DNA from: Streptococcaceae bacterium
GTDB taxonomy: Bacteria; Bacillota; Bacilli; Lactobacillales; Streptococcaceae
Assembly (NCBI GenBank): GCA_031254295.1
Contig: JAIRUS010000099.1
Location: forward strand, 1-61,689
Direction of reading: 5' to 3'
Length of the DNA stretch: 61,689 nucleotides
Shown: positions 14,412 to 61,031 of the stretch, in pieces
Layout: every line of letters starts with the position of its first letter
Numbering within the stretch: position 1 is the first letter of the stretch
Made by a program: the position numbers and the translations under genes
The notes under the pieces: generated by a model
The model's database searches: none
What the model was told of the DNA's origin: nothing
What the model saw: the letters and a program-made list of their open reading frames with translations, nothing else

Positions 14412-14447
14412 CACTTCTTAATTTGTATGATAACAAATATACTCAAA

Positions 14448-14540
14448 CAGAGTAGAGTAAAGTGCGTTAAGTGTTATGAGACGGGATGTTGCTCATAGAC
14501 GAAGCTGGTTTTCCAGCGCGGTACTTGCTCGCGTCCGCTG
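14448..14540 (+). promoter_or_regulatory. Tetrahydrofolate (THF) riboswitch
   Basis: The segment contains the conserved blocks of the THF riboswitch (folT motif) in order: AGAGTAGA, GCGTTAAGTG, GGGATGTTG, ACGAAGC, GCGCGGT and GCGTCCGCTG. It precedes a folate-family ECF substrate component, the usual target. A downstream CTCTCC(TTTT) segment can pair with the AAGGAG ribosome binding site of the gene, so control is probably translational. The family assignment is by recalled consensus; the gating model is inference. Confidence 0.85.
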
Positions 14541-14647
14541 TAAAAAATATTGAATCTATTCCATAAAACATTTTCTATCAAAGGATAAATGATTGTGGAG
14601 GAAGTCTCTCCTTTTGCAGCTCACTTCAAAAATAGAAGGAGCTTTTT

Positions 14648-22382: not shown

Positions 22383-22468
22383 AAAATAAGGATACTCTGT
22401 TTTCCCCTTTATGTCCATTGCTAGAGAAGCAAGGATGTTTTATAAAACAATAGAAAGTAATTTATCTT

Positions 22469-23149
22469 ATGAAAATCGGAATAATTTGTGCACTGGACGA
22501 AGAACTCAAAGTCCTTATAGAAAATCTTGACAACGCAGGCGAACAGACACGTTTTGGCTATATTTTTCATACAGGATTTATTGGCAGGCATGAACTAGTG
22601 CTTATGCGCTCAGGTATTGGTAAGGTCATGAGTGCGATTGCAGTTTCTCTATTGGCAGAGATTTTTGAAGTTGATGCCATCATAAACTCTGGGTCAGCTG
22701 GCGCACTAGATGCTTCGCTTCAGATTGGAGATGTAGTCATTGCAGACCGTTTGGCCTATCATGATGTAGATGTTACGGCTTTTGGCTATCAATTTGGGCA
22801 GATGGCACAACAGCCCTTGTATTATGAATCAAGCAAGTATTTTATCTCTGAGTTAAAAAAAGTTATATCAGAGCCGAAAATTGGCCTCGTTACAAGCTCA
22901 GATAGTTTTATTGCAGATGAGCGCAAGATTGCCGAGATTAAGTCGCACTTTCCAGATGTTTTGGCTGTAGAAATGGAGGGTGCGTCAATTGCCCAAGCCG
23001 CCACAGCTCTAAAAAAACCTTTTGTGATTATTCGCGCAATTTCTGATACTGCGCAGCACGACGCGAATATCAAATTTGATGAATTTATTGTCGAAGCAGG
23101 TCGCCGGTCAGCTGAGGCATTGGTGAAACTTTTAGAAAATATGATTTAA
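22469..23149 (+). CDS. mtnN: 5'-methylthioadenosine / S-adenosylhomocysteine nucleosidase
   Basis: Cleaves MTA and SAH to adenine plus the thioribose, part of methyl-cycle recycling and AI-2 precursor formation. The 226-residue protein begins MKIGIICALDEELKVLI and contains MRSGIGKV, NSGSAGAL, the VEMEGASIAQAA motif (catalytic Glu) and IRAISDTA with the catalytic Asp. Length is normal. The ATG has only a weak upstream purine run (GAAAGTAA). Confidence 0.95.
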   Translation: MKIGIICALDEELKVLIENLDNAGEQTRFGYIFHTGFIGRHELVLMRSGIGKVMSAIAVSLLAEIFEVDAIINSGSAGALDASLQIGDVVIADRLAYHDVDVTAFGYQFGQMAQQPLYYESSKYFISELKKVISEPKIGLVTSSDSFIADERKIAEIKSHFPDVLAVEMEGASIAQAATALKKPFVIIRAISDTAQHDANIKFDEFIVEAGRRSAEALVKLLENMI

Positions 23150-23316: not shown

Positions 23317-24633
23317 ATGACAGAATTAGAAAATGATTTTACTCAATCACTTTACGATAACTTTGCAGCAAATCCAAAATATCGTGCGGTTGAAAATGCT
23401 ATTACGAAGAATGGTTTGTTGAACGCTTTAGAGCGCCGATCTTCACATGCAGAGAACATTCCAGAGTTTTCTATTGATCTTACGAAAGATCCAGTATCCA
23501 ATCAGAAGCAATCAGGACGTTGTTGGATGTTTGCCGCCTTGAATACTTTCCGTCATAAGATGATCAAAGGGCTGAATCTTGGGGATTTTGAGCTTTCACA
23601 GTCTTATACATTCTTCTGGGACAAGTATGAAAAGTCAAATTGGTTTTTTGAAATGCTGATTTCAAATCCAGATATGGACGATCGCAAGCTCAAGTTTCTT
23701 TTGACAACTCCCCAAGGAGATGGCGGACAGTGGGATATGATTGTGGCTATTTTCCAAAAATATGGTGTCGTGCCAAAAGCTATTTATCCTGAATCTGTTG
23801 CCTCATCGGCATCACATGAGCTAGATCAGTATCTTGATAAATTGCTTCGTCAAGGCGCTGAGAAACTTCGTTTGGCTATGAAGAAGTCAGAAGATGTCGA
23901 AGCTTTACGCAAAGAGCTTCTTCAAGAAATCTTTAATTTCCTAGCTGCAACTCTTGGCTTGCCACCACTACAGTTTGACTTTGCTTTCAGAGACAAGGAC
24001 GGTAAGAATTTGACAAAGTTCTCAGGCACAGCAAAAGACTTCTATGAGCAGTTTGTGGGTGTTGATTTGAACGAATATGTTTCTATCATCAACGCACCTA
24101 CGGCAGATAAACCTTACAATACTTCATACACTGTCGAATTTCTCGGCAATGTCGTAGGGGCACGCCCTGTAAGACATTTAAATGTTGAAATGTCTCGCTT
24201 CAAAGAACTGGCTATTTCGCAAATGCAACAAGGAGAATCTGTTTGGTTCGGCTGTGATGTTGGCCAAGTCTCAAATCGCAAAGATGGACTTCTTACACTT
24301 GATGCCTACGACTTTGACTCAGCTCTTGATATAAGCTTCACTCAGGGTAAAGCGGCAAGACTTGACTATGCTGAGAGTCTGATGACCCATGCGATGGTCT
24401 TGACAGGTGTTGATTTGGACGAAAACGGCAAATCAACAAAATGGAAGGTTGAAAACTCATGGGGCGATGACGTCGGCAAGAAAGGCTATTTTGTAGCTTC
24501 GGACGAGTGGATGGATGAATTTACCTATCAGATCGTTGTACGTAAAGAATTTCTCACGGCTGCAGAGTTAGCTGCCTATGAAGCAGAACCGAAAGTTCTC
24601 CTTCCGTGGGATCCAATGGGGGCACTGGCTTAA
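23317..24633 (+). CDS. pepC: Aminopeptidase C (bleomycin hydrolase family cysteine peptidase)
   Basis: A cytoplasmic broad-specificity aminopeptidase typical of lactic acid bacteria. The 438-residue protein carries the papain-fold catalytic triad: Cys69 in SGRCWMFAALN, His near 358 in MTHAMVLTGV, and Asn near 379 in VENSWG. The N-terminus (LYDNFAANPKYRAVENAITKNG) and the C-terminal blocking arm are present, so the gene looks complete. It has its own promoter. The start follows GAAAGAAG. Confidence 0.96.
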   Translation: MTELENDFTQSLYDNFAANPKYRAVENAITKNGLLNALERRSSHAENIPEFSIDLTKDPVSNQKQSGRCWMFAALNTFRHKMIKGLNLGDFELSQSYTFFWDKYEKSNWFFEMLISNPDMDDRKLKFLLTTPQGDGGQWDMIVAIFQKYGVVPKAIYPESVASSASHELDQYLDKLLRQGAEKLRLAMKKSEDVEALRKELLQEIFNFLAATLGLPPLQFDFAFRDKDGKNLTKFSGTAKDFYEQFVGVDLNEYVSIINAPTADKPYNTSYTVEFLGNVVGARPVRHLNVEMSRFKELAISQMQQGESVWFGCDVGQVSNRKDGLLTLDAYDFDSALDISFTQGKAARLDYAESLMTHAMVLTGVDLDENGKSTKWKVENSWGDDVGKKGYFVASDEWMDEFTYQIVVRKEFLTAAELAAYEAEPKVLLPWDPMGALA

Positions 24634-24675: not shown

Positions 24676-24684
24676 TGCTATAAT
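24676..24684 (+). promoter_or_regulatory. Extended -10 promoter of the candidate antisense RNA
   Basis: TGC-TATAAT. Transcription would start near 24691 and end at the terminator 24764-24792. Confidence 0.55.
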
Positions 24685-24690
24685 ATTTCT

Positions 24691-24790
24691 GTTGAGAAGA
24701 GCACCGAAAAAAGCCTGTGACGTCAATCACAGGCGTGTTCAAAAATTCTCTGCGGAAGGTGGGACGTTAGTCTAAGTGACTAACGTTTTT
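24691..24790 (+). ncRNA. Candidate structured RNA, possible type I antitoxin
   Basis: A roughly 100-nt transcript lies between an extended -10 promoter and an intrinsic terminator, with no plausible ORF. It folds as a long hairpin: GAGAA and GAGCAC on the left pair with GTGTTC and TTCTC on the right, around the inner stem GCCTGTGA/TCACAGGC. It is complementary to the 3' end of the minus-strand transcript that carries the 36-codon ORF, overlapping by about 80 nt. This is the geometry of bsrG/SR4 or txpA/RatA type I units. No known RNA family was recognised. Confidence 0.5.
24707..24734 (-). terminator. Minus-strand terminator of the small ORF transcript
   Basis: On the minus strand GCCTGTGA pairs with TCACAGGC and is followed by TTTTTT. 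Confidence 0.75.
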
Positions 24791-24792
24791 TT
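24764..24792 (+). terminator. Plus-strand terminator of the candidate antisense RNA
   Basis: ACGTTAGTC/GACTAACGT followed by a run of seven T. The 3' end of the minus-strand ORF lies within this stem. Confidence 0.8.
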
Positions 24793-24877
24793 CATGCCAG
24801 ATGCGTCGAACTTCAAGATTAATCTTACTAACCTTGACAAGGTCAAGAAAGATTTGAATGATTTCGAGTATCTCCAT
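24767..24877 (-). CDS. Candidate 36-residue small peptide (possible type I toxin)
   Basis: Too short for the ORF track. It starts with ATG at 24877, has GGAAAGGTG five bases upstream as a ribosome binding site, and ends with TAA at 24767. The peptide begins MEILEIIQIFLDLVKVSKIN and ends RRIWHEKNVSHLD, an amphipathic hydrophobic helix followed by a charged tail. The ribosome binding site (CTGCGGAAAGGTG) is complementary, with one bulge, to CACCTTCCGCAG at the 3' end of the same transcript. Such long-range occlusion is typical of type I toxin mRNAs. I do not recognise the peptide family. Confidence 0.45.
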   Translation of the reverse strand: MEILEIIQIFLDLVKVSKINLEVRRIWHEKNVSHLD

Positions 24878-24994
24878 GCGCACCTTTCCGCAGGGAGCGG
24901 ACGATCCGTCATATTACATAGCTCCCTTACTTTTTTAGAGTTTGGTGAAGTTGCCGCAGAACGGATTTGAACACAGAGTTTTTTTAGACTCTTA

Positions 24995-25000
24995 ATTATA
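24995..25000 (-). promoter_or_regulatory. Possible -10 element for the small peptide transcript
   Basis: TATAAT on the minus strand about 120 bases upstream of the small ORF. No convincing -35 is seen. Confidence 0.35.
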
Positions 25001-25082
25001 TATACGTAAATCCTCTGATTTGTTTCAGTATATTGTAGTTTTTGAATATTTAAGAAGTGCAAACTTCTTTGAATTTGCTACC

Positions 25083-25118
25083 CATTTGCTGTGTATTGCT
25101 AAAGCGATAACGCAAATC
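25083..25118. repeat. Dispersed hairpin repeat with GCTAAAGC apex
   Basis: CATTTGC ... TATTGCTAAAGCGATA ... GCAAAT, matching the inner part of the elements at 14329 and 16080. Confidence 0.55.
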
Positions 25119-25186
25119 ATACGCAAAATCCCCTGATTTGTTTTGTTGGTAGGGAAAAATGTTCGGCATTTAGAGGAGTGTTTTTT

Positions 25187-26300: not shown

Positions 26301-28865
26301 ATGAAAAAAAATAAAAATCCACAAATAACAAACTTTAGAAGCTGGAAGTCGGGTAAAAGCTGGCTGTATGCAGCAGGCTTGTCTATAACAATGGTTGGCG
26401 GACTTGCGACAGTCACGAGAGCTTCTGCTGACAGCACTTCTGGCGGAGTGACGACAGAGTTACAGCTTGCCTCTCTAGCGACGACAGCCGCAATAGTCTC
26501 ATCACAAGCAGCCCCCTCAGTGTCAACAGTTGCCAGCGCGAGTTCGGTCTCAGTAGCACTAAGCTCAAACAGCCTGCAAAGTGCTTATCAGAAATTTGAC
26601 CTTGTATTGGCGCAGGCGACGACATTGGCAACAACGTCAGTAACTTCAAGTGCCGTAGCTGTTACAAGCACGGCGGCGACTACTTCAAGTTCGCTTTCAG
26701 CCTTGAATGTTTCATCGCTTGCGAGTGAGGTTGGTTCAGCCTATAACACGACCCTTGGGTCATTTGTGTCAAATACAGTCTCAACGATTGGGGTGGTCAA
26801 TGTCATCAATCAAATCACCAATCTTGTGAGTCAGGCGGCGCCATACCTTGCCTCTGTTCCAGGTGCTACAGGTATTACCAGTACAATCACAGGCGTGGTG
26901 TCTGGCGTTAAAAATGTACTGCAGATGGCTTCAGTTCTCGGTCTGTCCCCAGATGTCATCAACAACATGGTAGCCTCAGTCATCAATGGAGGTATCAACA
27001 CAATCGGTACGATGCTCCAGTCGGGTCTGAGTCCGATCCTCCAACAAATCCCACTCATCGGTGCGCCAATCGTGAACCTGCTCAACCCGATTCTGTCAAA
27101 CTTATCTGGGATTAGCCCAGCCAGCCTCGTAGCGAGCCTAGCCAATGCGGCAGGTTTGACCTCAGTTTTAGATGGTCTCTCTGGCCTGATAAATACTTTG
27201 GAGCCAGGAGTAGTCGCAGGGCTCCAAGGAGTGGTTGATACATTGACAGGCGTTTACAATATGGTGAACTCAATCGTCACACCTATCGGCGGTTTTATAT
27301 CAGGTCTTTTCGCACCAGTTCAAAATCTTCTCTCAGGAGTTATCTCGACGATTCAGTCGGCTCTAGGATTGGGAGGAACGACCTCGAGCACAGCTAGCTC
27401 TGCTACAAGTAGTGCGACGAGTTCGACCAACTCGACAACAAGCTCAGTTGCTTCATCGGCGTCATCAGCAACGTCATCATCTGCTGCAAGTAGCCAAGCT
27501 AGCAACGTCATGGTAGTGGGCAATACAATCATCACACGAAACAGTATCTGGAAAGCCACTGATAACTTCGTACTGGCGACAACAGACGGTACAAACGTCT
27601 CACTCGCGGACATCTCGGTAGCAGGCAAGGTCAATACAAAAATCCCAGGAACCTATGCAGTCACATACACCTTTAAAGATAAGTACAATAAGGCCTTTAT
27701 AACGACTGCGACCGTTTCAGTTGTCAATCTGGGAGATCCGTCTCTGGACTCTGGGACATTCCTCAATGTCCGACACACGACAGCAGATGATAACACGGCA
27801 GGTTCAGTCATCACAAAAAACACTATCGTCCTGCGCAACTCGACTTGGGCAGCCAGCGCAAATCTAGTCTCAGCCACAAGCTCGACAGGGAGTCCAGTCG
27901 CCACAACAGATATGTACACAGTGGGTAAAGTTCTCACGACGATTCCAGGGACATATAACGTTGTCTATTTCTTTACAGATGCAGCGACAGGTAAAGTCAT
28001 CAAAAACACAGCGGCCATCACGGTTTTACAGGAGACAGATAGCGCCTCAGCGCTTGCCAATGCGCAGCTTGCGAAAAGTCAAGCCTCAGCAGCGATTACG
28101 TCAGATACAGCCGCAATTGCCAGCCTGAATAATCAACTGGCAAATCTCACAGGTGTCCAAAGTGATCCAACGACGACCTTTACATCGACGACAAACTATC
28201 CAAGCGTACAGACAGTGACAGTACCAGCTGTAGCAGGGAGCTTCACACCAGATCTAGCAAAAATCAACACGTATTTCCTGCAGTATCTCAATGAGCTGAA
28301 AACTGCTAATGGCCAAGCGACAGTGAGTTACTCAGCGAGCGAGCAAGCATTTGCTCAGCAGCGTGCCCAAGCCATTGTGGCAAGCTTTAGTCACGATGGG
28401 TCTAACGGCTCCACAGAAAATATTGGAGCTTCAGGAAATATCATCTCGACCTTTAAATCAGATCAAGAGATTGCCTACTATATGTTGATGGACTGGTACG
28501 ATGAGACAAGTAATCCTGAAGCCCTTGGCGCAGGACATTATGGACACCGTGCCAACCTCATCTATGGTGGCCCAAGCGTAGGAATTGGTTATCTGAGCCT
28601 AGCAACACCAGACTCTGGGGGATTTGATGAGTACCATGCCATGGAGGCGCCGCAATATACAAACGCGACACTCTATAACGCAGCCGTTGCGATGTCAAAC
28701 AGCACAACAGATCCGCAGTCAATCCCGTTGCCAAAAGTCTTGTTCAACTATGTAGACAGTGCGACCTATAACAATCTCACAAGTCAGATCGAGGCGATGA
28801 CAGCCGACCTAGCTGCGAATCAAGCAAAGCTCGCCGCAGCAAATAGTACACTTTCAGCGCTTTAA
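26301..28865 (+). CDS. KxYKxGKxW-signal secreted protein with Ig-like domains and C-terminal CAP domain
   Basis: An 854-residue exported protein. The N-terminus NFRSWKSGKSWLYAAG carries the KxYKxGKxW-type signal motif, with a likely cleavage after RASA near residue 46. A Ser/Ala-rich segment leads into a long hydrophobic, Gly/Ile/Leu-rich helical region (about 155-355). A Ser/Thr linker follows, then two bacterial Ig-like domains (about 410-475 and 505-578; IPGTYAVTYTF and IPGTYNVVYFF), a short coiled coil, and a CAP/SCP domain at about 650-800. The CAP signatures are SFSHDGS, TENIGASG and GHYGHRANLIYG. There is no wall anchor. The CAP domain suggests a wall- or host-directed function, but its activity is unknown. 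Confidence 0.85.
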   Translation: MKKNKNPQITNFRSWKSGKSWLYAAGLSITMVGGLATVTRASADSTSGGVTTELQLASLATTAAIVSSQAAPSVSTVASASSVSVALSSNSLQSAYQKFDLVLAQATTLATTSVTSSAVAVTSTAATTSSSLSALNVSSLASEVGSAYNTTLGSFVSNTVSTIGVVNVINQITNLVSQAAPYLASVPGATGITSTITGVVSGVKNVLQMASVLGLSPDVINNMVASVINGGINTIGTMLQSGLSPILQQIPLIGAPIVNLLNPILSNLSGISPASLVASLANAAGLTSVLDGLSGLINTLEPGVVAGLQGVVDTLTGVYNMVNSIVTPIGGFISGLFAPVQNLLSGVISTIQSALGLGGTTSSTASSATSSATSSTNSTTSSVASSASSATSSSAASSQASNVMVVGNTIITRNSIWKATDNFVLATTDGTNVSLADISVAGKVNTKIPGTYAVTYTFKDKYNKAFITTATVSVVNLGDPSLDSGTFLNVRHTTADDNTAGSVITKNTIVLRNSTWAASANLVSATSSTGSPVATTDMYTVGKVLTTIPGTYNVVYFFTDAATGKVIKNTAAITVLQETDSASALANAQLAKSQASAAITSDTAAIASLNNQLANLTGVQSDPTTTFTSTTNYPSVQTVTVPAVAGSFTPDLAKINTYFLQYLNELKTANGQATVSYSASEQAFAQQRAQAIVASFSHDGSNGSTENIGASGNIISTFKSDQEIAYYMLMDWYDETSNPEALGAGHYGHRANLIYGGPSVGIGYLSLATPDSGGFDEYHAMEAPQYTNATLYNAAVAMSNSTTDPQSIPLPKVLFNYVDSATYNNLTSQIEAMTADLAANQAKLAAANSTLSAL

Positions 28866-28913
28866 GTGAAAGATAAAAATAAAATTCAAGTCAAAATGGA
28901 AGGGGATTGAGAC

Positions 28914-30461
28914 TTGCAAGAAGACATAAACGCAAATAATACGATGAAAATTGGGCTTGAAGGCTTTGAAGTTGTCTCCGTCCCTGATGGCATCCTAAAA
29001 AGGCAGCAAAATCAACTCCAACGATGTCGTTATTTGATGAATCTCTTAGAAAAAGAAATTACAAATACAAAGGCACTTTTAGATTTTGATAATGGAAAGA
29101 AAAAAGACCAAAGCTATTTTCAAGATTTTCTTTTTCAAAAGGGTTTGCATGAGCTTTACCGCTCAGCTCTATTGGCAGCAGAATCACAGATACAACCACT
29201 GGACTATATCTATCAAGCTGAACTGAAAGAAAAAGAAGTTGAAAAGCAACATCAGGCGATAGCTGCTCAAACAGCCAACACAACCGACAAAGCTGACAAA
29301 GAAAAATCTCAGGCCAGAGAAATCTCCGAGCGCACAGCGTTGAACTCAGAGCAGGAGGTTGAGTCTGAGCGTATCGATCAAGCCAGTGCCAATCTAAAAG
29401 AGCTCCATCAGCTCATGGACGAGATTGAGTCATCGCCTCTACTTGATAGCTTTGTTGACAGCCAAGCTATCAACAAAGGAGATGACAAGGGGCAAGAAGA
29501 TAAAGCGGAGGAAATGGATCAAGAACAGTTCATATCTGAGGCAGATGCCATGCTCCAAGAACTCCTCCAGCAGACAGAGAGAGATTCACAAGCAGCAGAA
29601 GCAAACGAGCAAGAAACGCAAGCGACAATGGAACAGACCAGTAGCGAAAACTACTCAGAAAAAATCCACTCTATGAGTGCCTCATTGAGTGAACTGACAT
29701 TGACAAACCCACTGAGCTCAGAGGCCCTCGCCAAAGAATGGCTCACAGGAATCCAATCTCTCGTCGTAGGCACTCCGTTTGAAAATAGCCTCCATGATCT
29801 TGAACAAATAGATGTCCTCCTCGAGAATATTGGAGGAGGACAAACCAGTTTTGCTCAATCGAGTGCGCACTCGCTCTACAAAGAGGTTGAAAAACCAATC
29901 ATGTCCGACTCTCTGTCACTATCAGATTCTTCTCATACCCTGCAGACATTGCAGGAGGAAGAAGCCTCACTCAGTCTGTCTGAGCTCTCTGAATTCAATG
30001 AAGAGATGGATAGAAAAATCTCTGTAGAAAGACCCGACCTCGCAGATCTTGGTGAAGACGGAGGAACAGATGAGACGAGTGGTGAGACTAAAAAAGATGA
30101 CAGCCTAGAGCCGTCACAGACAGCAGAGGAGCTGACAAGTCAGTTCCTTGCGAGCGTTCAATCCATGGCAGAGAACGAAGAGCTGAAAAGTCAGCTTGCC
30201 TCGCTCAGTAGCTCGCAGAGTGAGATCATGCAGCAGCAGTCAGACTATGCAGACTTCATGATGAATCTCGGCCAAGATATGGCAACAGTCAACATAGGAG
30301 ACTTCCTCGACTTTGACTCCTCCGCGAATAAACAGGCGGATCCCTTGTTCACAGAAAGAGAGCGACTCAACGATCTTCAAAAATATTTTGAAGAGTTGGA
30401 TCATGAGCGAACACTAAAACAGGCAAATCAAAAAAATAAAAAAAGAAGATGGGCTAAATGA
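28914..30461 (+). CDS. Large acidic cytoplasmic protein of the surface locus, unknown function
   Basis: 515 residues starting at TTG (28914), with GGAAGGGG upstream; an in-frame ATG at 28944 is the alternative start. It has no signal peptide and no membrane span. The first 110 residues are helical and mixed in charge (RQQNQLQRCRYLMNLLEKE). The rest is extremely rich in Glu, Gln, Ser and Asp with repeated helical segments, and the last 15 residues are basic (QANQKNKKRRWAK). I do not recognise it. A cytoplasmic acidic protein inside an operon of exported low-complexity proteins could be a chaperone or scaffold, perhaps contacting the basic tail of the first gene product (inference). The end overlaps a small ORF as ATGA. 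Confidence 0.75.
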   Translation: MQEDINANNTMKIGLEGFEVVSVPDGILKRQQNQLQRCRYLMNLLEKEITNTKALLDFDNGKKKDQSYFQDFLFQKGLHELYRSALLAAESQIQPLDYIYQAELKEKEVEKQHQAIAAQTANTTDKADKEKSQAREISERTALNSEQEVESERIDQASANLKELHQLMDEIESSPLLDSFVDSQAINKGDDKGQEDKAEEMDQEQFISEADAMLQELLQQTERDSQAAEANEQETQATMEQTSSENYSEKIHSMSASLSELTLTNPLSSEALAKEWLTGIQSLVVGTPFENSLHDLEQIDVLLENIGGGQTSFAQSSAHSLYKEVEKPIMSDSLSLSDSSHTLQTLQEEEASLSLSELSEFNEEMDRKISVERPDLADLGEDGGTDETSGETKKDDSLEPSQTAEELTSQFLASVQSMAENEELKSQLASLSSSQSEIMQQQSDYADFMMNLGQDMATVNIGDFLDFDSSANKQADPLFTERERLNDLQKYFEELDHERTLKQANQKNKKRRWAK

Positions 30462-30619
30462 TACTTATGATACTTTTCATTTACTTCATGACTCAGAGCC
30501 TAAAAGATGGTATCGGACGACACGACTCCCTCACATGGCCCCAAGTCAGAGTAAATGCGCCAAACATTAACTCGATATCCTACATAAGAATAAGAAAAAA
30601 AGCAAAGGAGACAAGATAA
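30458..30619 (+). CDS. Candidate 53-residue small protein, overlapping both neighbours
   Basis: Below the ORF-track cutoff. It starts in an ATGA overlap with the preceding stop and ends in a TAATG overlap with the next start, filling the gap exactly. The peptide has a short hydrophobic N-terminus (MILMILFIYFM) and a polar basic C-terminus (IRIRKKAKETR). Against it, the codon use is unusual for the region (many ATA and AGA) and the ribosome binding site is weak, so translation would depend on coupling. Real or coincidental is undecided. Confidence 0.35.
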   Translation: MILMILFIYFMTQSLKDGIGRHDSLTWPQVRVNAPNINSISYIRIRKKAKETR

Positions 30620-30915
30620 TGAAGTCCAAAGCCTACGTCAAAACAACAGACACAAAAATTACTGAAATGTCTGCGTGGTTTGCAGCTTCAAACTTTATCG
30701 AGGCGATAAATTCGCAAGGTGAAAAGGTCGAAAACGACGAGATAAGTGTGAGTGGAAAGGTAAATCCACATCTAGCTGGAGATTATCATATCATCTATAG
30801 CTTTACTGATCCTTATCTAGGAGAAATAGTCGAAGGTCATGCGACCGTCACAGTGCTGTCAGCAAAAAGTAAGATAAGTAAGACAGCCAAGGCCTCAATG
30901 AGCCTAAAAAAGTAA
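30619..30915 (+). CDS. Stand-alone bacterial Ig-like domain protein without signal peptide
   Basis: 98 residues behind AAAGGAGA with good spacing. Apart from a few terminal residues the protein is a single Ig-like (Big_3-type) domain: TKITEMSAWFAASNFIEAI, ISVSGKVNPHLAGDYHIIYSFTD, HATVTVL. It has the same layout as the C-terminal domains of the flanking exported proteins, yet no signal peptide is visible. It might be a cytoplasmic decoy or chaperone, a reservoir cassette for recombination, or the broken end of a former adhesin gene. The last is less likely given its good ribosome binding site and intact frame. Confidence 0.65.
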   Translation: MKSKAYVKTTDTKITEMSAWFAASNFIEAINSQGEKVENDEISVSGKVNPHLAGDYHIIYSFTDPYLGEIVEGHATVTVLSAKSKISKTAKASMSLKK

Positions 30916-30943
30916 ATTATTAATTAGTTTGGATAAAAATAGT

Positions 30944-33313
30944 ATGTCACAACACAACACAACACAACACAACACAACACAACACAACAACTTCAAAGTA
31001 TGGAAGTCAGGAAAGAACTGGCTTTATAGCTCAACAGCTCTTGCAATAACTGCAGGTGCTATCGGACTTGGTTCAACAAAGGCAAAAGCTGACGTCGCCT
31101 CAGATATCCAAAGTCAGATTGCGTTGACATCAATGTCGAACGACATTGTGAATACGCCTGCCGTAGCTTCTACAGCACCTGTATCAGCAGTAGCGAAGAC
31201 AGCTGCAACTGCAACGATGAGTTTGGCTTCAACATCAGCAGTTGCTTCATCTGTTGCAGCTCCATCTTCAGCTGCTCCAACTGAAATCTTATCAGGATTG
31301 CAAACATTGATGAGTCAAGTATCAAGTGCAAACGCAGTATCTCCAGAGGCTGGGTCATCATACACTGCAATGCTTCAGTCACGTCTTTCAAGCTATGCAT
31401 CGACTTCTGAATATGCAAGTAATTTCAGCGCCTTGACAAATGGTGTGAGCCATGTAGCAAGTAATGCTGCTCTTACATCAGAAGCCGCAGGTTACTCATC
31501 AGCTGCAGAGATGCTCACTTCTGGATTCTCAGACTTGTCTTCAGCAGTCTCTGCAGGAACAGTTGATTCTTACGTGAAAGCTAAAGTAAGCTCAATGGCA
31601 GCGACATCTAGTGGTGTAGCACAATTGTCAGACTTTGTCAGTGCGATGTCAACCTATCTGGCGGCTCCTTCGACAACTTCGTATGCAGAAACAGTTGCTT
31701 CGATGGCAGTAGATAAGGCACAAGCACTAGGCAATCAAAGCCTTGTTGCAGTATTTACCCTCTGGAAGGAAAATGCTTCATCTTATACTACAGCTGGAGT
31801 AGATGCATTGACAGCAGCTAAGTCAGCATTGTCTTCACAGGATAGCGCACTTGCAGGACAGATTATGCAAGAGGTGGGAGAGGCTTATAAAGCAGCTCAT
31901 CCAGCAGCTAAAACCCTTGGAGCGAAAACACTGGCAGGGGCAACGCTCAGTAGCTCTGATGCCTACTATAGTACGATTAACCCTCTACAAGCCTTGGCTT
32001 TGACGGCTTTACCTACACTTATCGCCACAATTGGCGGTGTCGCTGTCGGAGAGCTTATCGCGACAATTACAATTACAGCATTTACTGCCGTAGCTAACGT
32101 TGTTGCGGATGTTGTCATGTTAATCCCTAACATGATGCCAGTTGTAGATTGGTTCTTTGCGGCTGTTAATCCGATTGGTGCGACAGCATTTGGAGGAATA
32201 ATCGGTGGTATTCTCTTTGGTGTCGGTGGCGGAATGATCACAGCAGGTCTTTTGGGACTAGCAGCGGGAGATAGCGTTAATAATACTTTTGTAGCACCTG
32301 CTCTAGGTATAGATATGACAAATCCTGCTAACGTAAACATGATCAGCATGATTGACTTAGGTGTAGGACTAGGTGCAGCAGTAGTTGCAGGTACTTCAGC
32401 AGTCCTTGGCGGTGTTGCTGTTGTGGGGATTGCAGAAGTAATTGCGGGTGGAACTGGCTTAGGTCTAGGTGCACTCTCAACTATTCCATTCCTTGGCGCG
32501 ATTTTGAACCCTATTGAAAATCTAATTGCTTGGGTACTCATGCAAATCCCAGGACAGATTGCAGGTGGTATTTTTGGTGCTATAGGTGGTCTTGTAGGTG
32601 GTGTCGCTGGAGGTATGATCACATACGCACTTGCTAAGACTGGACTTTTAGGTCAGCTTTGGAACTTCATTGGTGGCGTTGTGAATAGTGTTCTATCTCA
32701 GACTGTTATCGACAATACCGTAAAAACAGGTGTTATCGCTTTAAATAACGCAACAGTTGCCTATGGTGGAACTTTCTCTCCAGGTAAACTTTTGATCAGT
32801 GCGACTTCTGCGAGTGGTGTTGCAATCGCAACAACTGCTATCACAGTCAAGGGAGCAATCAATACAAAGGTTCCTGGTACATACGTTTATCAATACTCAT
32901 TTATAGATCCAACAAGCGGTGCAACAGTATCAAACTCAGCTCTCGTCACAGTAACAGCCAAAGGAGCCGCAACAGCAGGTGCAATGTCACTGACAGCACA
33001 AACTAACGCAGCAACTGCGACAAGCAAAGCAACAGTCACAGTTAAAGATCTGACTGTATCAACAGGTTCAATCTGGACAGCGAAGTCAGCTTTCGTCTCA
33101 GCCACTGACTCGACAGGCGCAGCCGTAGCTGTCTCAAATATCCAAGTGATTGGCCGTGTAGACACACGCACACCGGGTGTATACCCAGTGATTTATAGCT
33201 TTACAGATGCGACGACTGGTGCAGTAGTTACAAAAACTGCTCTTGTAACAGTCAAAGCACAAACTCAAACAGCTACGGCAACTCTCTATCAAGGAGCTGT
33301 TGCTATGGCATAA
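30944..33313 (+). CDS. KxYKxGKxW-signal surface protein with hydrophobic Gly-rich core, paralog 1 (repeat-tract gene)
   Basis: The ORF track starts at a TTG; I use the ATG at 30944 (789 residues), which lies ten bases after a weak GGAT. Eight CACAA units follow the start codon and encode QHNTT repeats. The signal region is KVWKSGKNWLYSSTALAITAG, with cleavage near AKA-DV. Next come an Ala/Ser-rich helical region (about 50-340) and a very hydrophobic segment (about 345-585) full of GxxxG-type patterns (GGIIGGILFGVGGGMI, GGLVGGVAGGMI). Two Ig-like domains close the protein, ending LYQGAVAMA. There is no LPXTG. The protein resembles the next two ORFs over both ends, with a divergent middle. Confidence 0.8.
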   Translation: MSQHNTTQHNTTQHNNFKVWKSGKNWLYSSTALAITAGAIGLGSTKAKADVASDIQSQIALTSMSNDIVNTPAVASTAPVSAVAKTAATATMSLASTSAVASSVAAPSSAAPTEILSGLQTLMSQVSSANAVSPEAGSSYTAMLQSRLSSYASTSEYASNFSALTNGVSHVASNAALTSEAAGYSSAAEMLTSGFSDLSSAVSAGTVDSYVKAKVSSMAATSSGVAQLSDFVSAMSTYLAAPSTTSYAETVASMAVDKAQALGNQSLVAVFTLWKENASSYTTAGVDALTAAKSALSSQDSALAGQIMQEVGEAYKAAHPAAKTLGAKTLAGATLSSSDAYYSTINPLQALALTALPTLIATIGGVAVGELIATITITAFTAVANVVADVVMLIPNMMPVVDWFFAAVNPIGATAFGGIIGGILFGVGGGMITAGLLGLAAGDSVNNTFVAPALGIDMTNPANVNMISMIDLGVGLGAAVVAGTSAVLGGVAVVGIAEVIAGGTGLGLGALSTIPFLGAILNPIENLIAWVLMQIPGQIAGGIFGAIGGLVGGVAGGMITYALAKTGLLGQLWNFIGGVVNSVLSQTVIDNTVKTGVIALNNATVAYGGTFSPGKLLISATSASGVAIATTAITVKGAINTKVPGTYVYQYSFIDPTSGATVSNSALVTVTAKGAATAGAMSLTAQTNAATATSKATVTVKDLTVSTGSIWTAKSAFVSATDSTGAAVAVSNIQVIGRVDTRTPGVYPVIYSFTDATTGAVVTKTALVTVKAQTQTATATLYQGAVAMA
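30948..30987 (+). repeat. Pentanucleotide repeat (CACAA)8 directly after the start codon
   Basis: Eight perfect CACAA units begin two bases after the ATG. A pentamer gain or loss shifts the frame. Both alternative frames reach a stop within about 25 codons of the tract, before or within the signal peptide. Confidence 0.9.
33041..33265 (+). repeat. C-terminal Ig cassette, copy 1 of 3
   Basis: Nucleotide sequence nearly identical to 35362-35587 and 37849-38074. The encoded domain (GSIWTAKSAFVSATDSTG ... VIGRVDTRTPGVYPVIYSF) differs at only a few residues. Confidence 0.85.
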
Positions 33314-33336
33314 ATAAACAAAGGAAAATTTAATCT

Positions 33337-35628
33337 ATGAAGACGAAAGAAACTCAAATCAAGAACACAGCTTTTCGTGCTTGGAAGTCAGGCAAGAACT
33401 GGCTCTACACTTCGACTGCTTTTGCAGTTACAGCAGGTGCTATCGGACTTGGCGCTACAAAAGCAAAAGCTGATGTGGCATCAGATATCCAAACACAAAT
33501 TGCTTTGGCCTCTATGTCAAACGAAGCGGCTACAACACCGGCAACTATAGGTTCTACAGCGCCTGTATCAGCTGTAGCGAAAACTGCTGCGACAGCTTCG
33601 ATGAGCCTTGCGTCAACAGTATCGACCTCATCTGTAGCGACAGCGTCAATGACAAGTCTTGACGCTTCTGCAACAGCAGAGCTTTCATCAGCTTTTGACT
33701 CATTGATGTCAGCATCGCCAGAGTTGGCTTCGTTGAGCACAACGCTTAACTCATACTTCTCAGCGAATCCATCTGCGATGGATTCATTGGGCAGTTCGAT
33801 GACATCGATGGTATCCGCAGCCAATGACCTTGCAAGCTCAGCGATGAGTTCATTTGCAGCGAACTCATCTGCGATTGCCTCGATTAATTCAGTGCTTGAT
33901 AACTCAATGGCAGCTGTAAACTCATTGATGACTGAGCTTTCATCAGAAACAGCCGCCATCTCAAGCTCTCTGGCGTCAACAGTAGGAGACTCAGCCGCGA
34001 TTGCCTCATCTATGGCAGCTCTTTCAAGTATTGCAGATTTGACAACAGCCTTGTCAAATGCGATTGCAAAACCTGACTCTGCTACACTCTCAGCTTTCTC
34101 AGAGGCTTATGCAGCAGCTAAGACATCTCCTTTGCTTACGTCTTATGTTGCAGGCATTTCTAAGACTTTGGCTGCGACCTCTACAACGACGACAACGACA
34201 AGCTCAAATCCACTTGATTTCTTGGGCGGTATCACGGGTACACTTTTCAATGCAATTAGTGGTATTGTCGGCTTCTTGAACCCTGTAAATCTATTGGGTG
34301 GTCTCTTGACTCCTCTCCTTGGCATGGGACAAATTGGTCAGTTTGCCGCTTCACTTATTGGATCTGTTGTGACCAGTACAGTCCTAGGCGTGGCGGCGAC
34401 AGGAGTAGGTGCGCTTGGAGCCAATCTTATCTCGCTTATTCCTGCAGTTGCCTCAGGTACACTTTGGGGATTGATTCCAATTCTTGGTCTGGTTACGAAT
34501 GGTATTACAACAACAACGGGATTAGGATGGATTGGTGGTATAGCTGGTTGGCTTTCTGGTTCTGTTGGTGCAGCCGTAGGTGGCTATTATGGTGGAACGT
34601 CTATCCCAGGTATGGCAGATAGCTCAGGACACGTGAGTAATATTGTAGGGCTTACCTCCCTAGGAGCAGCACTCGGTGGTGTTGTAGGCACAACTCTGGC
34701 ACAATGGATTGTCACATATCCATTAGCGCATATCATGGCGATTCCAGGAGCTTTATTTGCAGTTGCAGGTATTATTGGTACGATTTCAACCTTACTTAAC
34801 TTTGTTGTTCCATTATATGCTACTTGGTGGACACCTCTGTTAGATACAATATCTTCAGCAGTGGGTACACCTATTGGCGCAATTATTGGTGGTACGATTG
34901 GTGGGGCGCTTGGATTTATACTTGATACGGTAGGAATTCAGCTTAATCTTCCAGATGCTGCAACTCTTGTAAAAGATGTCGCAAGCTTACCAGGTATTTC
35001 TGACCTTCTCCAAACAATCGTGACAGTGACAAATACAGTACCAGCAGTGACTGGCGCTATCACGCTAAGTGATGCGACTGTGGCTTATGGTGGTACATTT
35101 GTACCATCTAAGTTGTTTAGCTCAGCTAAAGATGCTGCAGGCAATGCCGTTGCCGCTTCATTGATTACCGTTACAGGAACTATCAATACAAAAGTTCCAG
35201 GTAAATATGTCTATAAATATTCATTTGTAGATCCATCAAATGGCGCAACGGTGACAAACTCAGCAATCGTAACTGTTGCAGCGAAGACTGCTACAGCAGG
35301 TGCGATGACACTGACAGCTCAAAGCCAAAATGTAGTCAATACAGGTCAAGCCTCAGTAACAGTCAAAGACTTGACAGTATCAACAGGTTCAATCTGGACT
35401 GCGAAGTCAGCTTTTGTCTCAGCAACTGACTCGACAGGTGCAGCCGTAGCTGTCTCAAATATCCAAGTCATCGGTCGTGTAGACACACGCACACCAGGCG
35501 TCTATCCAGTCATCTATAGCTTCACAGACGCAGCAACAGGAGCAGTGATTACAAAAACTGCCCTCATCACAGTTAAGGCTCAAACTGTAACAGCTAATGT
35601 TTATCCAACAGCTGTTGCATTGGCATAA
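33337..35628 (+). CDS. KxYKxGKxW-signal surface protein, paralog 2 (no repeat tract)
   Basis: 763 residues behind AAAGGAAAA. The N-terminus FRAWKSGKNWLYTSTAFAVTAG matches the paralogs, but the short tandem repeat after the start is absent, so this copy should not be phase variable by that route. An Ala/Ser/Met-rich helical domain (about 50-285) is followed by a hydrophobic Gly-rich core (about 290-545; IGGIAGWLSGSVGAAVGGYYGG, GAIIGGTIGGALGFI). Two Ig-like domains come next, ending YPTAVALA. No wall anchor. The gene starts 24 bases after its neighbour, in the same orientation. Confidence 0.82.
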   Translation: MKTKETQIKNTAFRAWKSGKNWLYTSTAFAVTAGAIGLGATKAKADVASDIQTQIALASMSNEAATTPATIGSTAPVSAVAKTAATASMSLASTVSTSSVATASMTSLDASATAELSSAFDSLMSASPELASLSTTLNSYFSANPSAMDSLGSSMTSMVSAANDLASSAMSSFAANSSAIASINSVLDNSMAAVNSLMTELSSETAAISSSLASTVGDSAAIASSMAALSSIADLTTALSNAIAKPDSATLSAFSEAYAAAKTSPLLTSYVAGISKTLAATSTTTTTTSSNPLDFLGGITGTLFNAISGIVGFLNPVNLLGGLLTPLLGMGQIGQFAASLIGSVVTSTVLGVAATGVGALGANLISLIPAVASGTLWGLIPILGLVTNGITTTTGLGWIGGIAGWLSGSVGAAVGGYYGGTSIPGMADSSGHVSNIVGLTSLGAALGGVVGTTLAQWIVTYPLAHIMAIPGALFAVAGIIGTISTLLNFVVPLYATWWTPLLDTISSAVGTPIGAIIGGTIGGALGFILDTVGIQLNLPDAATLVKDVASLPGISDLLQTIVTVTNTVPAVTGAITLSDATVAYGGTFVPSKLFSSAKDAAGNAVAASLITVTGTINTKVPGKYVYKYSFVDPSNGATVTNSAIVTVAAKTATAGAMTLTAQSQNVVNTGQASVTVKDLTVSTGSIWTAKSAFVSATDSTGAAVAVSNIQVIGRVDTRTPGVYPVIYSFTDAATGAVITKTALITVKAQTVTANVYPTAVALA
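35362..35587 (+). repeat. C-terminal Ig cassette, copy 2 of 3
   Basis: Same domain as at 33041 and 37849, with mainly synonymous differences. Confidence 0.85.
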
Positions 35629-35650
35629 AAATATAAAAAGGATTTATGAC

Positions 35651-38116
<2,466 letters not shown>

Positions 38117-38166
38117 GTTTCTAAATTATTAATAAATAGAAAAATAAAAAGGAAAGCAATTAATTT

Positions 38167-41064
38167 ATGAATAAATTTAATTCATCAGACGACTCAGCCT
38201 CTAATAAGAACACTAACTTCCGTACTTGGAAGTCAGGTAAAAACTGGGTCTTCTCATCAGCACTTTTGACATTTGCAATGGTTGGTGGCTCACTTAAAGC
38301 GAAAGCCGATGTGGCAACTACAACACCCGCAACAGCCCAAGTAGCACAAACTGCTACACCAACTTCGGCTGTGGCAAGCTCTACAGCCGCTTCAACAGTT
38401 GCTGTCTCATCTGTTGCAGCGTCTTCATCAGCAGTTGCGATGACACTTGCTGCCATCTCATCTACTGCAACAAGCTACACTGGTACAAATGCACAAGGTA
38501 GCGCCGTAACTATCACAGTTACAAACCCAACTTTCCCAGTAGGTGATTCATTTGCCCCTGTACAAGGTGACCAAGTAACTGTTGCGAATGGCACAGCAAC
38601 TTATCAAGGTGTGACATTTACGATTGATAATCCGAATGCAACAGCTACTGACTTTATCCAAATCGTAGGTGTAAACGGCAGCACATCAACAGCTACAGCT
38701 GGCAACACATATACAATCGACTGGAACTATGATGCAGCGCCTGGCACGATGAATGAAGTTATCGTACCATTGACACAAACTGTTACAATCGGTGCCGCTA
38801 CAAACACAGCAGTTAGCTCAGCGACATCTACAGCAGGCTCAGCTACTACAGCCGCCTCAAGCGCAGCAGGTAATGTTGTCTTGGCTTCATCATTTGCAAC
38901 AAACGCTGGAGCTGACGCAACACTTGCAAGCTCATACGCAGCAAACGCAAGTTCGTCTACAGTATTGACAAGCTCGTATGCCACTCAATACCCATCAGAT
39001 AGCGTATTGGCATCTGCTAACGCAGTCGCAAACTCTGCAAATACTGTGGCGCAATCTGCCAAGGCAGTTGCTTCAACAGCTGCATCAGATGCATCTTCAG
39101 CAGTCGCAGTCGCAAACTCAGCAGCACAAGTAGCTGCTAGCCAAGTTTCACTTGCAAACTCAGCACTTTCTGACATGATTGCTAACCCTAGCAATGCAGC
39201 ATCAGACACTGTAATCATTGACTCAGCAAATGCTATAGCTCAATCAGCTTCTGCTATAGCTTCAAGTGCAGCTACAGTTGCCTCATCAGATGCAGTAGTT
39301 GCCTCAAGCGCGAAAGATATTGCGTCATCAGCCGCTGCAGTCGCGTCATCAGCTGCAACATTGGCAACAAGCCAAGCCGCAACTGATTCAGCTTCAACAG
39401 TTGCTTCAACAGTTGCTTCATCAGTAGCTGCAACTTCAAGTTACTCAACAGATGCGTCTAAGTATGCTTCGCAAGCATCAAGCTCAGCAGACTTGACAAA
39501 ATCAGCCGCTTCAGCATATCCATCAGATGCAGTGATTTCATCAGCAAATGCTGTAGCTTCATCAGCAAACTCTGATGCACAGATTCAAAAATCTCTCGCT
39601 TCATCAGCAGTAGTTGCTGCCTCATCAGCAGCCACAGCAGGCGATAGCGCAGCACTTTCATCAGCTCTTACAGTTGCACAATCAGCTGCTTCACAAGCAT
39701 CATCAGATGCTGTTATCGCGTCATCAGCTGCAACATTGGCAACAAGCCAAGCCGCAACTGATTCAGCTTCATCTGTAGCTGCTGGATCAAGCTATGCTAA
39801 CAACGCTTCTAAGTATGCTTCACAGGCATCAAGCGCAGCAACAGTTACTAACTCAGCCGCTTCAGCTTACCCATCAGATGCAGTGATTTCATCAGCTAAC
39901 TCTGTAGCAAATTCAGCAAACTCTGATGCACAAGCTCAAAACTCTATCGCATCATCAGCAGTAGCAGCCGCTTCATCAGCCGCAGCAGCAGGCGACAGCG
40001 CAGGACTTTCATCAGCCCTTGCAATTGCTTCATCAGCTGCTGACGCAGCAAAATCTGATGCAGTTGTCGCAACATCAGCCGCATCAACAGCTTCTAATCA
40101 AGCAACTGCAAACAAAGCAAGCGATGCTTTTGACAACAGCGCCTCTGCTGTAGGTAGTGTTGTTTCAAATGCTAACGAAGGTGGACACATCGCCAGCGTT
40201 GCAAACACAACTGCAAACTCAGCAAGTGTAACTGCAAACAGCGCAAGCTCTATCGCATCAGTAGCAAGCTCACAAGCAAACTCAGCTTTCGATGCTATCC
40301 AAGTAGACGGTATCAAGTACTCATCAGACGCTATCGTACAACACTACGTAGCACAAGCTTCAAGCGCAACTTCAGCTACTAACAGCTATGCACTTGCAGC
40401 AAGCTCTGACGCATCAACAGCAAGCTCACAAGCAACTAACGTATCACTAGCAAACTCAATTGCTTCATCAGCTACATCAGTTGCAAACAGCTATGCTTCA
40501 CTTGCCAACTCAGCAATCCTTGCAAACAGTCCTAAGGCTGCTTCATACATTGCGATGGCACAAAGCGCAGCTGTAACAGCAAGCACTGCAGGTTCTATCG
40601 CTAGCTTTGACGCATCAATCGCATCATCTGCTGCAACTAAGGCAATGAGCGAAGCTGTAAGCGCAAGCTCAGCTGCAAGCCTTGTAAAAGGCTTTACATC
40701 AGCTGCAGATAGCTACGTCTCATCACAATACGGCTCAGCAGCTGCAAACAGCGCTGCAAGCTCTAACTACAACAACGGTCAAACAGACGGTTATGCAGAT
40801 GGTAGCAACGGTTCAGCTTGGAATCCAAAACAACCAAACAACCCAGATTACATGGCTGGCTACAGCAAGGGTTACCAATCAGGTATAGATGCACGTGCAA
40901 CACGTCTTACGGCTGGCAACACAGCTAAGACTTCTGCAAATCAAAAATCTCTACCTGATACAGGCGATGCATCATCAGCTCTTGCTCTTGAAGCATTTGG
41001 TGCGATGACACTTGCAGGCGCAGCTGTCCTAGGTCTTAAAAAACGTCGCAAAAACGAAGCCTAA
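38167..41064 (+). CDS. Ala/Ser-rich repeat surface protein with KxYKxGKxW signal and LPDTG wall anchor
   Basis: 965 residues; ATG behind AAAAGGAAAG. The N-terminus FRTWKSGKNWVFSSALLTFAMVGG is a KxYKxGKxW signal. A Ser/Thr/Ala segment and a beta-rich domain (about 95-215) precede 650 residues built from Ala, Ser, Val, Asn and Gln (repeats such as ASSAATLATSQAATDSAS). A C-terminal sorting signal follows: LPDTG at about 929, hydrophobic span, then KKRRKNEA. It is the only sortase-anchored protein of the locus and resembles serine-rich repeat adhesins, with Ala about as common as Ser. It is followed by a terminator and then two glycosyltransferase genes, whose most likely substrates are Ser/Thr-rich proteins like this one. 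Confidence 0.88.
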   Translation: MNKFNSSDDSASNKNTNFRTWKSGKNWVFSSALLTFAMVGGSLKAKADVATTTPATAQVAQTATPTSAVASSTAASTVAVSSVAASSSAVAMTLAAISSTATSYTGTNAQGSAVTITVTNPTFPVGDSFAPVQGDQVTVANGTATYQGVTFTIDNPNATATDFIQIVGVNGSTSTATAGNTYTIDWNYDAAPGTMNEVIVPLTQTVTIGAATNTAVSSATSTAGSATTAASSAAGNVVLASSFATNAGADATLASSYAANASSSTVLTSSYATQYPSDSVLASANAVANSANTVAQSAKAVASTAASDASSAVAVANSAAQVAASQVSLANSALSDMIANPSNAASDTVIIDSANAIAQSASAIASSAATVASSDAVVASSAKDIASSAAAVASSAATLATSQAATDSASTVASTVASSVAATSSYSTDASKYASQASSSADLTKSAASAYPSDAVISSANAVASSANSDAQIQKSLASSAVVAASSAATAGDSAALSSALTVAQSAASQASSDAVIASSAATLATSQAATDSASSVAAGSSYANNASKYASQASSAATVTNSAASAYPSDAVISSANSVANSANSDAQAQNSIASSAVAAASSAAAAGDSAGLSSALAIASSAADAAKSDAVVATSAASTASNQATANKASDAFDNSASAVGSVVSNANEGGHIASVANTTANSASVTANSASSIASVASSQANSAFDAIQVDGIKYSSDAIVQHYVAQASSATSATNSYALAASSDASTASSQATNVSLANSIASSATSVANSYASLANSAILANSPKAASYIAMAQSAAVTASTAGSIASFDASIASSAATKAMSEAVSASSAASLVKGFTSAADSYVSSQYGSAAANSAASSNYNNGQTDGYADGSNGSAWNPKQPNNPDYMAGYSKGYQSGIDARATRLTAGNTAKTSANQKSLPDTGDASSALALEAFGAMTLAGAAVLGLKKRRKNEA

Positions 41065-60707: not shown

Positions 60708-60733
60708 ACATGCCCTTCGGGGCATGTTTTATG
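60708..60733 (+). terminator. clpP terminator
   Basis: ACATGCCC-TTCG-GGGCATGT followed by TTT. The tetraloop is the stable UUCG type. Confidence 0.88.
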
Positions 60734-61031
60734 TCCGAGCTAAGAAACAAAAAAGCGAGGAACATAAGAAAAAACGTAGTTTTTTCTCATAGCCCTTCGG
60801 GGCATGTTTTATGTCCGAGCTAAGAAACAAAAAAGCGAGGAACATAAGAAAAAACGTAGTTTTTTCTCATAGCCCTCCGGGGCATGTTTTATGTCCGAGC
60901 TAAGAAACAAAAAAGCGAGGAACATAAGAAAAAACGTAGTTTTTTCTCATAGCCCTTCGTGGCATGTTTTATGTCTGAGCTAAGAAACAAAAAAGCGAGG
61001 AGATAAGGAAAAACGCAGTTTTTCTCTTTGC
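60712..61031 (+). repeat. Four tandem 80-bp units downstream of clpP
   Basis: Units begin at 60712, 60792, 60872 and 60952, exactly 80 bases apart. Each contains the GCCC-TTCG-GGGC terminator hairpin plus a second hairpin (GAAAAAAC-GTA-GTTTTTTC). Units 1 and 2 are identical, unit 3 has CCCTCCGGGG, and unit 4 has CCCTTCGTGG and further changes near its end. Confidence 0.93.

Follow-up and report, generated by a model that had tools for sequence, protein, structure and literature searches.

Positions 1 to 61,689 of contig JAIRUS010000099.1 from a Streptococcaceae bacterium (hereafter the window) include a compact unit, flanked by pepC (23317-24633) and by clustered surface-protein genes, that is predicted to produce two convergent RNAs. 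The minus-strand RNA, called RNA I, carries an open reading frame (ORF) for a hydrophobic peptide of 36 codons, and the plus-strand RNA, called RNA II, is a short structured RNA that is antisense to the 3′ end of RNA I. As judged from sequence analysis, these RNAs probably constitute a type I toxin-antitoxin-like unit from an undescribed family, wherein the toxin would be induced during genetic competence.

Two convergent RNAs and their relatives

A preliminary description of this region had proposed a plus-strand promoter followed by a structured RNA of about 100 nt and a terminator, a minus-strand RNA with a 36-codon hydrophobic ORF, and a 3′ overlap of about 80 nt between the two transcripts. 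Each of these proposals held up. RNA II (~103 nt) is preceded by an extended −10 promoter (TGCTATAAT) and ends with a terminator hairpin at nucleotides 24764-24786. Its predicted fold of −38.3 kcal/mol is far more stable than the mean of −22.6 kcal/mol for shuffled sequences (z = −5.1; 0 of 200 shuffles), and the minus-strand RNA, taken over the whole stretch, likewise yields a folding z of −4.4. The toxin ORF (24877-24770) is followed by a terminator hairpin for RNA I (24734-24713) that is also the first hairpin of RNA II when read on the opposite strand, such that the RNAs overlap at their 3′ ends by about 85-88 nt.

A BLAST search with the unit against genomes of the same genus revealed one diverged relative at another locus of genome G004 (contig C118), flanked by zwf-like and pyruvate-oxidase-like genes (gene names read from the flanks). 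When a covariance model was built solely from the RNA II of the window, more copies were detected in the genome that contains the window (G000) and in G004, and a model based on six sequences reached two more genomes of the genus as well as a second genus of the same family. From these two genera, whose genomes are partly drafts, we curated 19 intact units. An alignment of 21 RNA II sequences reveals compensatory changes at all 23 base pairs, with 92.2% of cells paired and a covariation score of 0.80, compared to 0.23 ± 0.02 for shuffled and at most 0.16 for slid alignments. The 19 units share the same order of parts in RNA I (a 5′ leader element, a Shine–Dalgarno (SD) sequence with a leader ORF, the SD of the toxin, and its ORF of 26-38 codons), and in all of them RNA I and RNA II overlap by ~85 nt at their 3′ ends.

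The predicted peptides of the 19 units are 26-38 amino acids in length and hydrophobic, and they end in a polar tail that is mostly basic. The window peptide aligns without gaps to that of the G004 relative on contig C118 (BLOSUM score of 35 versus −21.5 ± 14 for shuffled sequences), and the two ORFs differ at 24, 10, and 19 sites at codon positions 1, 2, and 3, respectively. In six of seven near-neighbor pairs, not all of which are independent, there are fewer amino acid changes than expected from random mutation (P < 0.05). Thus, the conservation of both the peptide and the paired structures in relatives, which the preliminary description had suggested checking, is evident in this family. 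A plus-strand ORF located opposite the toxin also scores as conserved, but this candidate was rejected because it lies past the RNA II terminator, lacks a ribosome site, and mirrors the conservation of codon position 2.

The peptide had been called unfamiliar, and indeed neither it nor any other part of the unit matches a Pfam, NCBIfam, or Rfam family above cut-off. Searches of plasmid, phage, and viral-contig sequences gave no match to the unit, and a search with the single window peptide returned mostly chance matches. Covariance-model matches in other genera of the family were weak (E 0.02-1) and were treated as chance, and a pattern scan of contigs gave one match, in a record titled Holosporaceae that is probably a mis-binned contig. 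Probable distant units (E about 0.001-0.01) are present in G502 and G598, which belong to another family of the order. These candidates include an RNA II, an SD-bearing leader ORF, SD:3′-end pairing, and a hydrophobic ORF ending in IIKKANHKD, although the similarity of the peptide tails is partly forced because they are encoded opposite the RNA II terminator.

A probable lock within RNA I and its leader ORF

The preliminary description had also noted that the toxin ribosome site is complementary to the 3′ end of its own mRNA. This complementarity exceeds chance, the arrangement is retained in diverged homologues, and the paired segments coevolve. In the window, nucleotides 24894-24882 pair with 24762-24751 through 12 base pairs and one bulged A, an interaction that is partly used in minimum free energy folds. 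In addition, a 21-bp inverted repeat (24735-24755/24954-24974) joins the leader of RNA I to the same 3′ end. The possibility that this repeat represents a miniature inverted-repeat transposable element or other mobile palindrome was set aside, since it is explained as a lock between the leader and the 3′ end.

In all 19 units, the 3′ end of RNA I is complementary to two segments of that RNA, the toxin SD region and the leader. When 3′ ends were swapped among units, the SD:3′-end pairing weakened from −19.5 to −12.1 kcal/mol, and the leader:3′-end pairing weakened from −19.4 to −11.8 kcal/mol (0 of 10,000 permutations in both cases). The lock motif itself drifts from unit to unit (CTGCGG, CGGTGA, TTGGTTATGG, CTCTGTAG), and the paired places drift together. 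For the window unit, cognate pairing is −22.0 kcal/mol for the ribosome site and −24.1 kcal/mol for the leader element, versus means of −9.7 and −12.1 kcal/mol with the 3′ ends of other units, and its own 3′ end ranks first among the 19 for both interactions. A conserved hairpin over the SD of the leader ORF was not significant (602 of 10,000 permutations).

The leader ORF (beginning at 24912 in the window), the leader element (24974-24954), and the RNA I promoter considered below (25027-25001) are parts that the preliminary description did not include. An SD-preceded leader ORF begins 30-44 nt before the toxin start in 19 of 19 units. It overlaps the toxin start out of frame in 11 units, is fused in frame in five, and ends 4-5 nt before the start in three, and its frame can differ even between close relatives (fused in G025 but not in G049). 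Such changes in frame suggest that a fusion protein is not what is conserved; rather, the conserved feature would be that ribosomes travel as far as the toxin start or beyond it. Because in-frame fusion occurs in only five of the 19 units, the leader ORF was ruled out as the true N terminus of the toxin.

The promoter of RNA I

In most units, RNA I is preceded by the sequence GNNACA-N15-(A/G)CGTATA together with a T run, which is unlike the RNA II promoters. Streptococcal sigma-X (ComX) is known to recognize TNCGAATA with a T motif upstream (PMC13101493; PMC11288034). When G000 and G004 were searched for TTTTNTACGWATA, six sites were found in G000, all of which are TTTTTTACGTATA, whereas the reversed pattern gave 0 and 1. 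The six occurrences of this exact 13-mer in the 2.1-Mb G000 genome are at a toxin unit (contig C143) and upstream of ssbB, comGA, dprA, radC, and a gene for a secreted protein. The identities of the four named competence genes were confirmed by Pfam; the N-terminal part of the secreted protein has no Pfam match.

The comGA and dprA promoters vary by species (for example, GCGAATAATA in G002, ACGCATA in G003, and CGTATTA in G004), and the toxin promoters match the competence variant of their own species (72% versus 57% identity over an 8-nt core; 1 of 20,000 permutations). We also scored promoters with a matrix trained on competence promoters, leaving out the species tested, and compared the results with 1016 unrelated windows. 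Scores as high as those of 12 of the 19 toxin promoters are reached by at most two of the unrelated windows, and the regions upstream of RNA II score low. The RNA I promoter in the window is the best-scoring site on either strand of the entire 61.7 kb (16.1, with the next at 11.9), and three of the 1016 unrelated windows score as high. A ComX-like sigma factor ORF (Pfam PF04542) is present in G000, G002, G025, and G060. Among near-complete genomes of the window's genus, G001 (99% complete) is alone in lacking comGA and dprA, and it contains no copy of the unit. The PF04542 search also missed ComX in G003, G004, and G043, and therefore its absence from G001 says nothing.

Several other sites with this promoter type were observed. 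The secreted protein preceded by TTTTTTACGTATA (G000:C20, upstream of position 3760; L104) is possibly a competence-induced murein hydrolase, and the same promoter sequence precedes a KilA-N-like ORF in G004 (G004:C11:14700; L107), which is an unexpected candidate competence gene. Within the window, another competence-promoter-like sequence, CAAAACA-N15-CGTATG, is present on the minus strand at 25118-25145. It lies in the second copy (25126-25143) of an 18-nt repeat whose first copy (25008-25025) overlaps the RNA I promoter, an arrangement that resembles a promoter duplication. In contig C143 of G000 (22386-23096), two family units ~500 bp apart (L038/L076) are in opposite orientation, one with a perfect competence promoter and the other seemingly having lost its own promoter.

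Features of the two-RNA unit in the window, with the evidence for each
Feature	Position	Strand	Basis
RNA II promoter, extended −10 TGCTATAAT	24676..24684	+	extended −10 in 19/19 units
RNA II, antisense RNA, putative antitoxin	~24691..24793 (~103 nt)	+	z = −5.1; 23/23 pairs with compensatory change, 21 sequences
RNA II hairpins	24713-24734; terminator hairpin 24764-24786, T run to 24793	+	fold, terminator
RNA I, carrying the 36-codon putative toxin ORF	about 24988-24706	−	
RNA I promoter, competence (ComX/sigma-X, cin-box) type, TGAAACA-N14-CGTATA	25001..25027	−	matrix score
Vegetative-looking TATAAT just 3′ of the competence-type promoter	25000-24995	−	sequence
RNA I 5′ leader element, complementary to RNA I 3′ end	24954..24974	−	inverted repeat; cognate pairing
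SD of leader ORF, AGGGAG	24922..24927	−	sequence
Leader ORF of 46 codons that covers the toxin start in a different frame; position as for Mok	24772..24912	−	all 19 units
Toxin ribosome site CTGCGGAAAGGTG	24882..24894	−	cognate pairing to RNA I 3′ end
Putative toxin ORF MEILEIIQIFLDLVKVSKINLEVRRIWHEKNVSHLD	24877-24770 (36 codons); 24767..24877 with stop	−	translation; frame conservation
RNA I 3′ lock element, pairing with ribosome site and leader	24735..24763	−	swap test, 0/10,000 permutations for both pairings
RNA I terminator hairpin (24734-24713) and T run	24706..24734	−	terminator scan

The surface-protein genes that adjoin the unit form a run of large secreted proteins (26301-41064, plus strand) with Ig-like domains, KxYKxGKxW-type signal peptides, a CAP domain, and an LPXTG anchor. 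At this location relatives have an rRNA-methyltransferase-like gene after pepC, and the region 3′ of pepC in eight relatives carries no unit. Elsewhere in the window, a tetrahydrofolate riboswitch (14446-14542, plus strand) is the sole match at the Rfam gathering level, and an 80-bp unit repeated 3.9 times in tandem (60712-61023; 96% matches) follows the last large ORF near the contig end.

Proposed mechanism, alternatives, and relation to known systems

These features are consistent with a mechanism wherein RNA II, whose vegetative promoter is recognizable in the sequence, would be made constitutively, and ComX would transcribe the convergent RNA I from its matching competence promoter. Full-length RNA I is expected to lock itself, with its 3′ end positioned on the 5′ leader and the toxin ribosome site through the coevolving pairings noted above, and thus would be translationally inert until translation of the leader ORF or 3′ trimming opens the lock. 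Given the anatomy of the leader ORF, ribosomes arriving from it could reach or cross the lock and initiate at the toxin start by translational coupling, as for Mok and Hok. RNA II would form a duplex of ~85 bp with the RNA I 3′ end and remove RNA I, probably via RNase III as for TxpA/RatA. RNA II could not cover the ribosome site itself, because its copy of that element has the same sense. If a strongly competent cell made RNA I in excess of RNA II, the small membrane peptide would be produced and would arrest or permeabilize that cell.

Several points weigh against this proposal. Peptide toxicity and ComX dependence of RNA I are properties that we infer from in silico analysis, and the correlation in G001, which lacks both the sought competence genes and the unit, rests on one genome. 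In five to seven units the competence promoter scores weakly or has been lost, the promoter in the window has a spacing of 14 instead of 15, and its adjacent TATAAT could serve the vegetative polymerase. The RNA I promoters of the distant G502 and G598 candidates look vegetative. The window peptide is also less hydrophobic than most (maximum 17-residue mean of 1.53 versus 1.9-3.0 in most others). Finally, binding of RNA II alone would free the ribosome site, and therefore silencing would have to run through RNA decay.

Some of these points could be accommodated by other explanations. The TATAAT that overlaps the promoter site in the window, the units with weak scores, and the vegetative-looking promoters in another family might mean that a genuine type I unit produces RNA I by using the vegetative polymerase, wherein the resemblance to competence promoters is incidental or auxiliary. 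We consider this quite improbable, given that an exact genome-wide search with the toxin motif retrieves competence genes, that the promoter variants are species-matched, and that the matrix does not pick out the RNA II promoters of these units. The altered spacing and low hydropathy, along with a peptide tail that is longer than in most family members, would also be expected if the window copy were a decaying, nonfunctional member of a real family. This seems unlikely, as all parts are present, the promoter has the best score in the window, and the cognate lock pairing ranks first for both elements.

The fact that RNA II and the ribosome site compete for one 3′ segment suggests a further alternative, in which RNA II acts as an activator: by binding the 3′ end of RNA I, it would make the toxin ribosome site accessible. 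We regard this role as very improbable: a duplex of ~85 bp is a good RNase III substrate, known systems with 3′ overlaps repress (PMC4147584), and damaged copies of the unit keep RNA II.

In damaged copies at G004:C63, G000:C56, G003:C7, and G000:C67, the 5′ half of RNA I is lost and RNA II is kept wholly or largely. At G004:C38 there is an insert between the leader ORF and the toxin, and G004:C76 looks similarly interrupted. For type I modules, loss of the toxin with retention of the antitoxin is the expected decay route, and a broken toxin and a retained antitoxin are the pattern anticipated if the toxin is harmful and the antitoxin useful. The preliminary description had held that a relative with a broken toxin frame and intact structures would speak against the unit; the copies that retain RNA II touch on this point, but they are only clearly damaged ones.

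This pattern also bears on the possibility that the same RNA circuit controls a nontoxic, competence-induced small membrane protein, with a role in shut-off, division delay, or the uptake machinery, and that the antisense RNA suppresses leakiness. The competence-type promoter and the constraint on a peptide whose toxicity we infer would fit such a protein. However, the genomes carry several units at irregular positions, each with cognate-specific and fast-drifting pairing, and some copies have lost the toxin half but kept RNA II, which looks more like addiction modules than like a conserved regulon gene. We therefore judge this explanation unlikely and favor a competence-induced toxin.

The general features of type I systems, namely a short hydrophobic peptide ORF with a ribosome site and an antisense RNA with its own promoter and terminator, are found here at the level of sequence, and the type I interpretation already advanced in the preliminary description appears well supported. 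The closest parallels are TxpA/RatA and BsrG/SR4 of Bacillus subtilis, whose 3′ overlaps are 75 and ~120 nt (PMC4147584). The window unit falls within this range, and it likewise has convergent 3′-overlapping RNAs, a small hydrophobic peptide, and a structured ribosome site. In contrast, no homology to these toxins or RNAs was detected with Pfam, NCBIfam, or Rfam, and the unit adds a leader ORF and a competence-type toxin promoter. Moreover, its ribosome site is locked to the 3′ end of the same RNA, with the leader competing for that segment, and the family was not seen on phages or plasmids.

In Hok/Sok, an upstream ORF overlaps the toxin and the mRNA 3′ end is folded back on the 5′ region (PMC4147584). 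The leader ORF overlapping the toxin start and the fold-back of the 3′ end are shared here, but the antisense RNA is directed at the RNA I 3′ end instead of the start of the leader ORF, the peptide is unrelated by profile search, and the hosts are Gram-positive. SprG1/SprF1 of Staphylococcus aureus, listed as a txpA/ratA homologue, yields two peptides from in-frame starts of sprG1 (PMC4147584). Some units here could do the same, but such in-frame fusions are a minority and no peptide family match was found.

Fst/par of pAD1 and Lpt, a known type I family in Lactobacillales, also have convergent promoters, a small membrane-type peptide, and a ribosome site occluded in RNA I. Fst/par is defined by direct repeats that make RNA II complementary to the toxin initiation region (PMC7472228). 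Membership in either group was rejected on the basis of repeat orientation, terminators, and motif. The repeat in the window unit is inverted, such that RNA II has the same sense as the ribosome site and the RNA I 3′ end is its complement. Two separate hairpins (24713-24734 for RNA I and 24764-24786 for RNA II) replace the single shared bidirectional terminator. The peptides lack the PxxxG and tryptophan motifs (none of the 19 has a proline in its hydrophobic core), and the unit has no match in Rfam.

As in the late competence regulon of ComX, a cin-box-type promoter is clear in 12 of 19 units, with (A/G)CGTATA, or the variant of the species, accompanied by a T run, and the window unit conforms apart from its spacing. 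In the descriptions that we found, the members of that regulon encode proteins that function in DNA uptake, recombination, and lysis. Literature searches, with most subscription papers outside their coverage, revealed no earlier description of this family and no paper on a type I toxin in the ComX regulon. The predicted combination of a Mok-like leader ORF, a coevolving lock among the 5′ leader, 3′ end, and ribosome site, and a TxpA-like 3′ antitoxin was likewise not found described. We file the unit as an undescribed type I family with competence-type control.

Such a unit might either arrest or lyse competent cells once a threshold is passed, or protect itself from being lost through transformation. 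In a selfish version of the latter, which we consider possible but doubtful, the toxin mRNA would be made only during competence, when recombination with donor DNA could exchange the unit for an empty allele. Loss of the RNA II gene at that time would poison the cell, and the unit would be guarded against curing. If true, this would represent transformation-timed addiction, wherein the unit guards itself and perhaps its flanks too.

Few chromosomal type I toxins have an established role, which reflects a lack of knowledge about their triggers. For this family, the sequence names a candidate trigger, the competence sigma factor, so that a role could be directly tested in transformable lactococci. 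If the proposal is correct, competence would have a peptide-toxin arm beside the known lysins, which might bear on why many such strains transform poorly. The toxin promoter resembles the switch used for DNA-uptake genes, and such control would link a putative bacterial poison with natural transformation.
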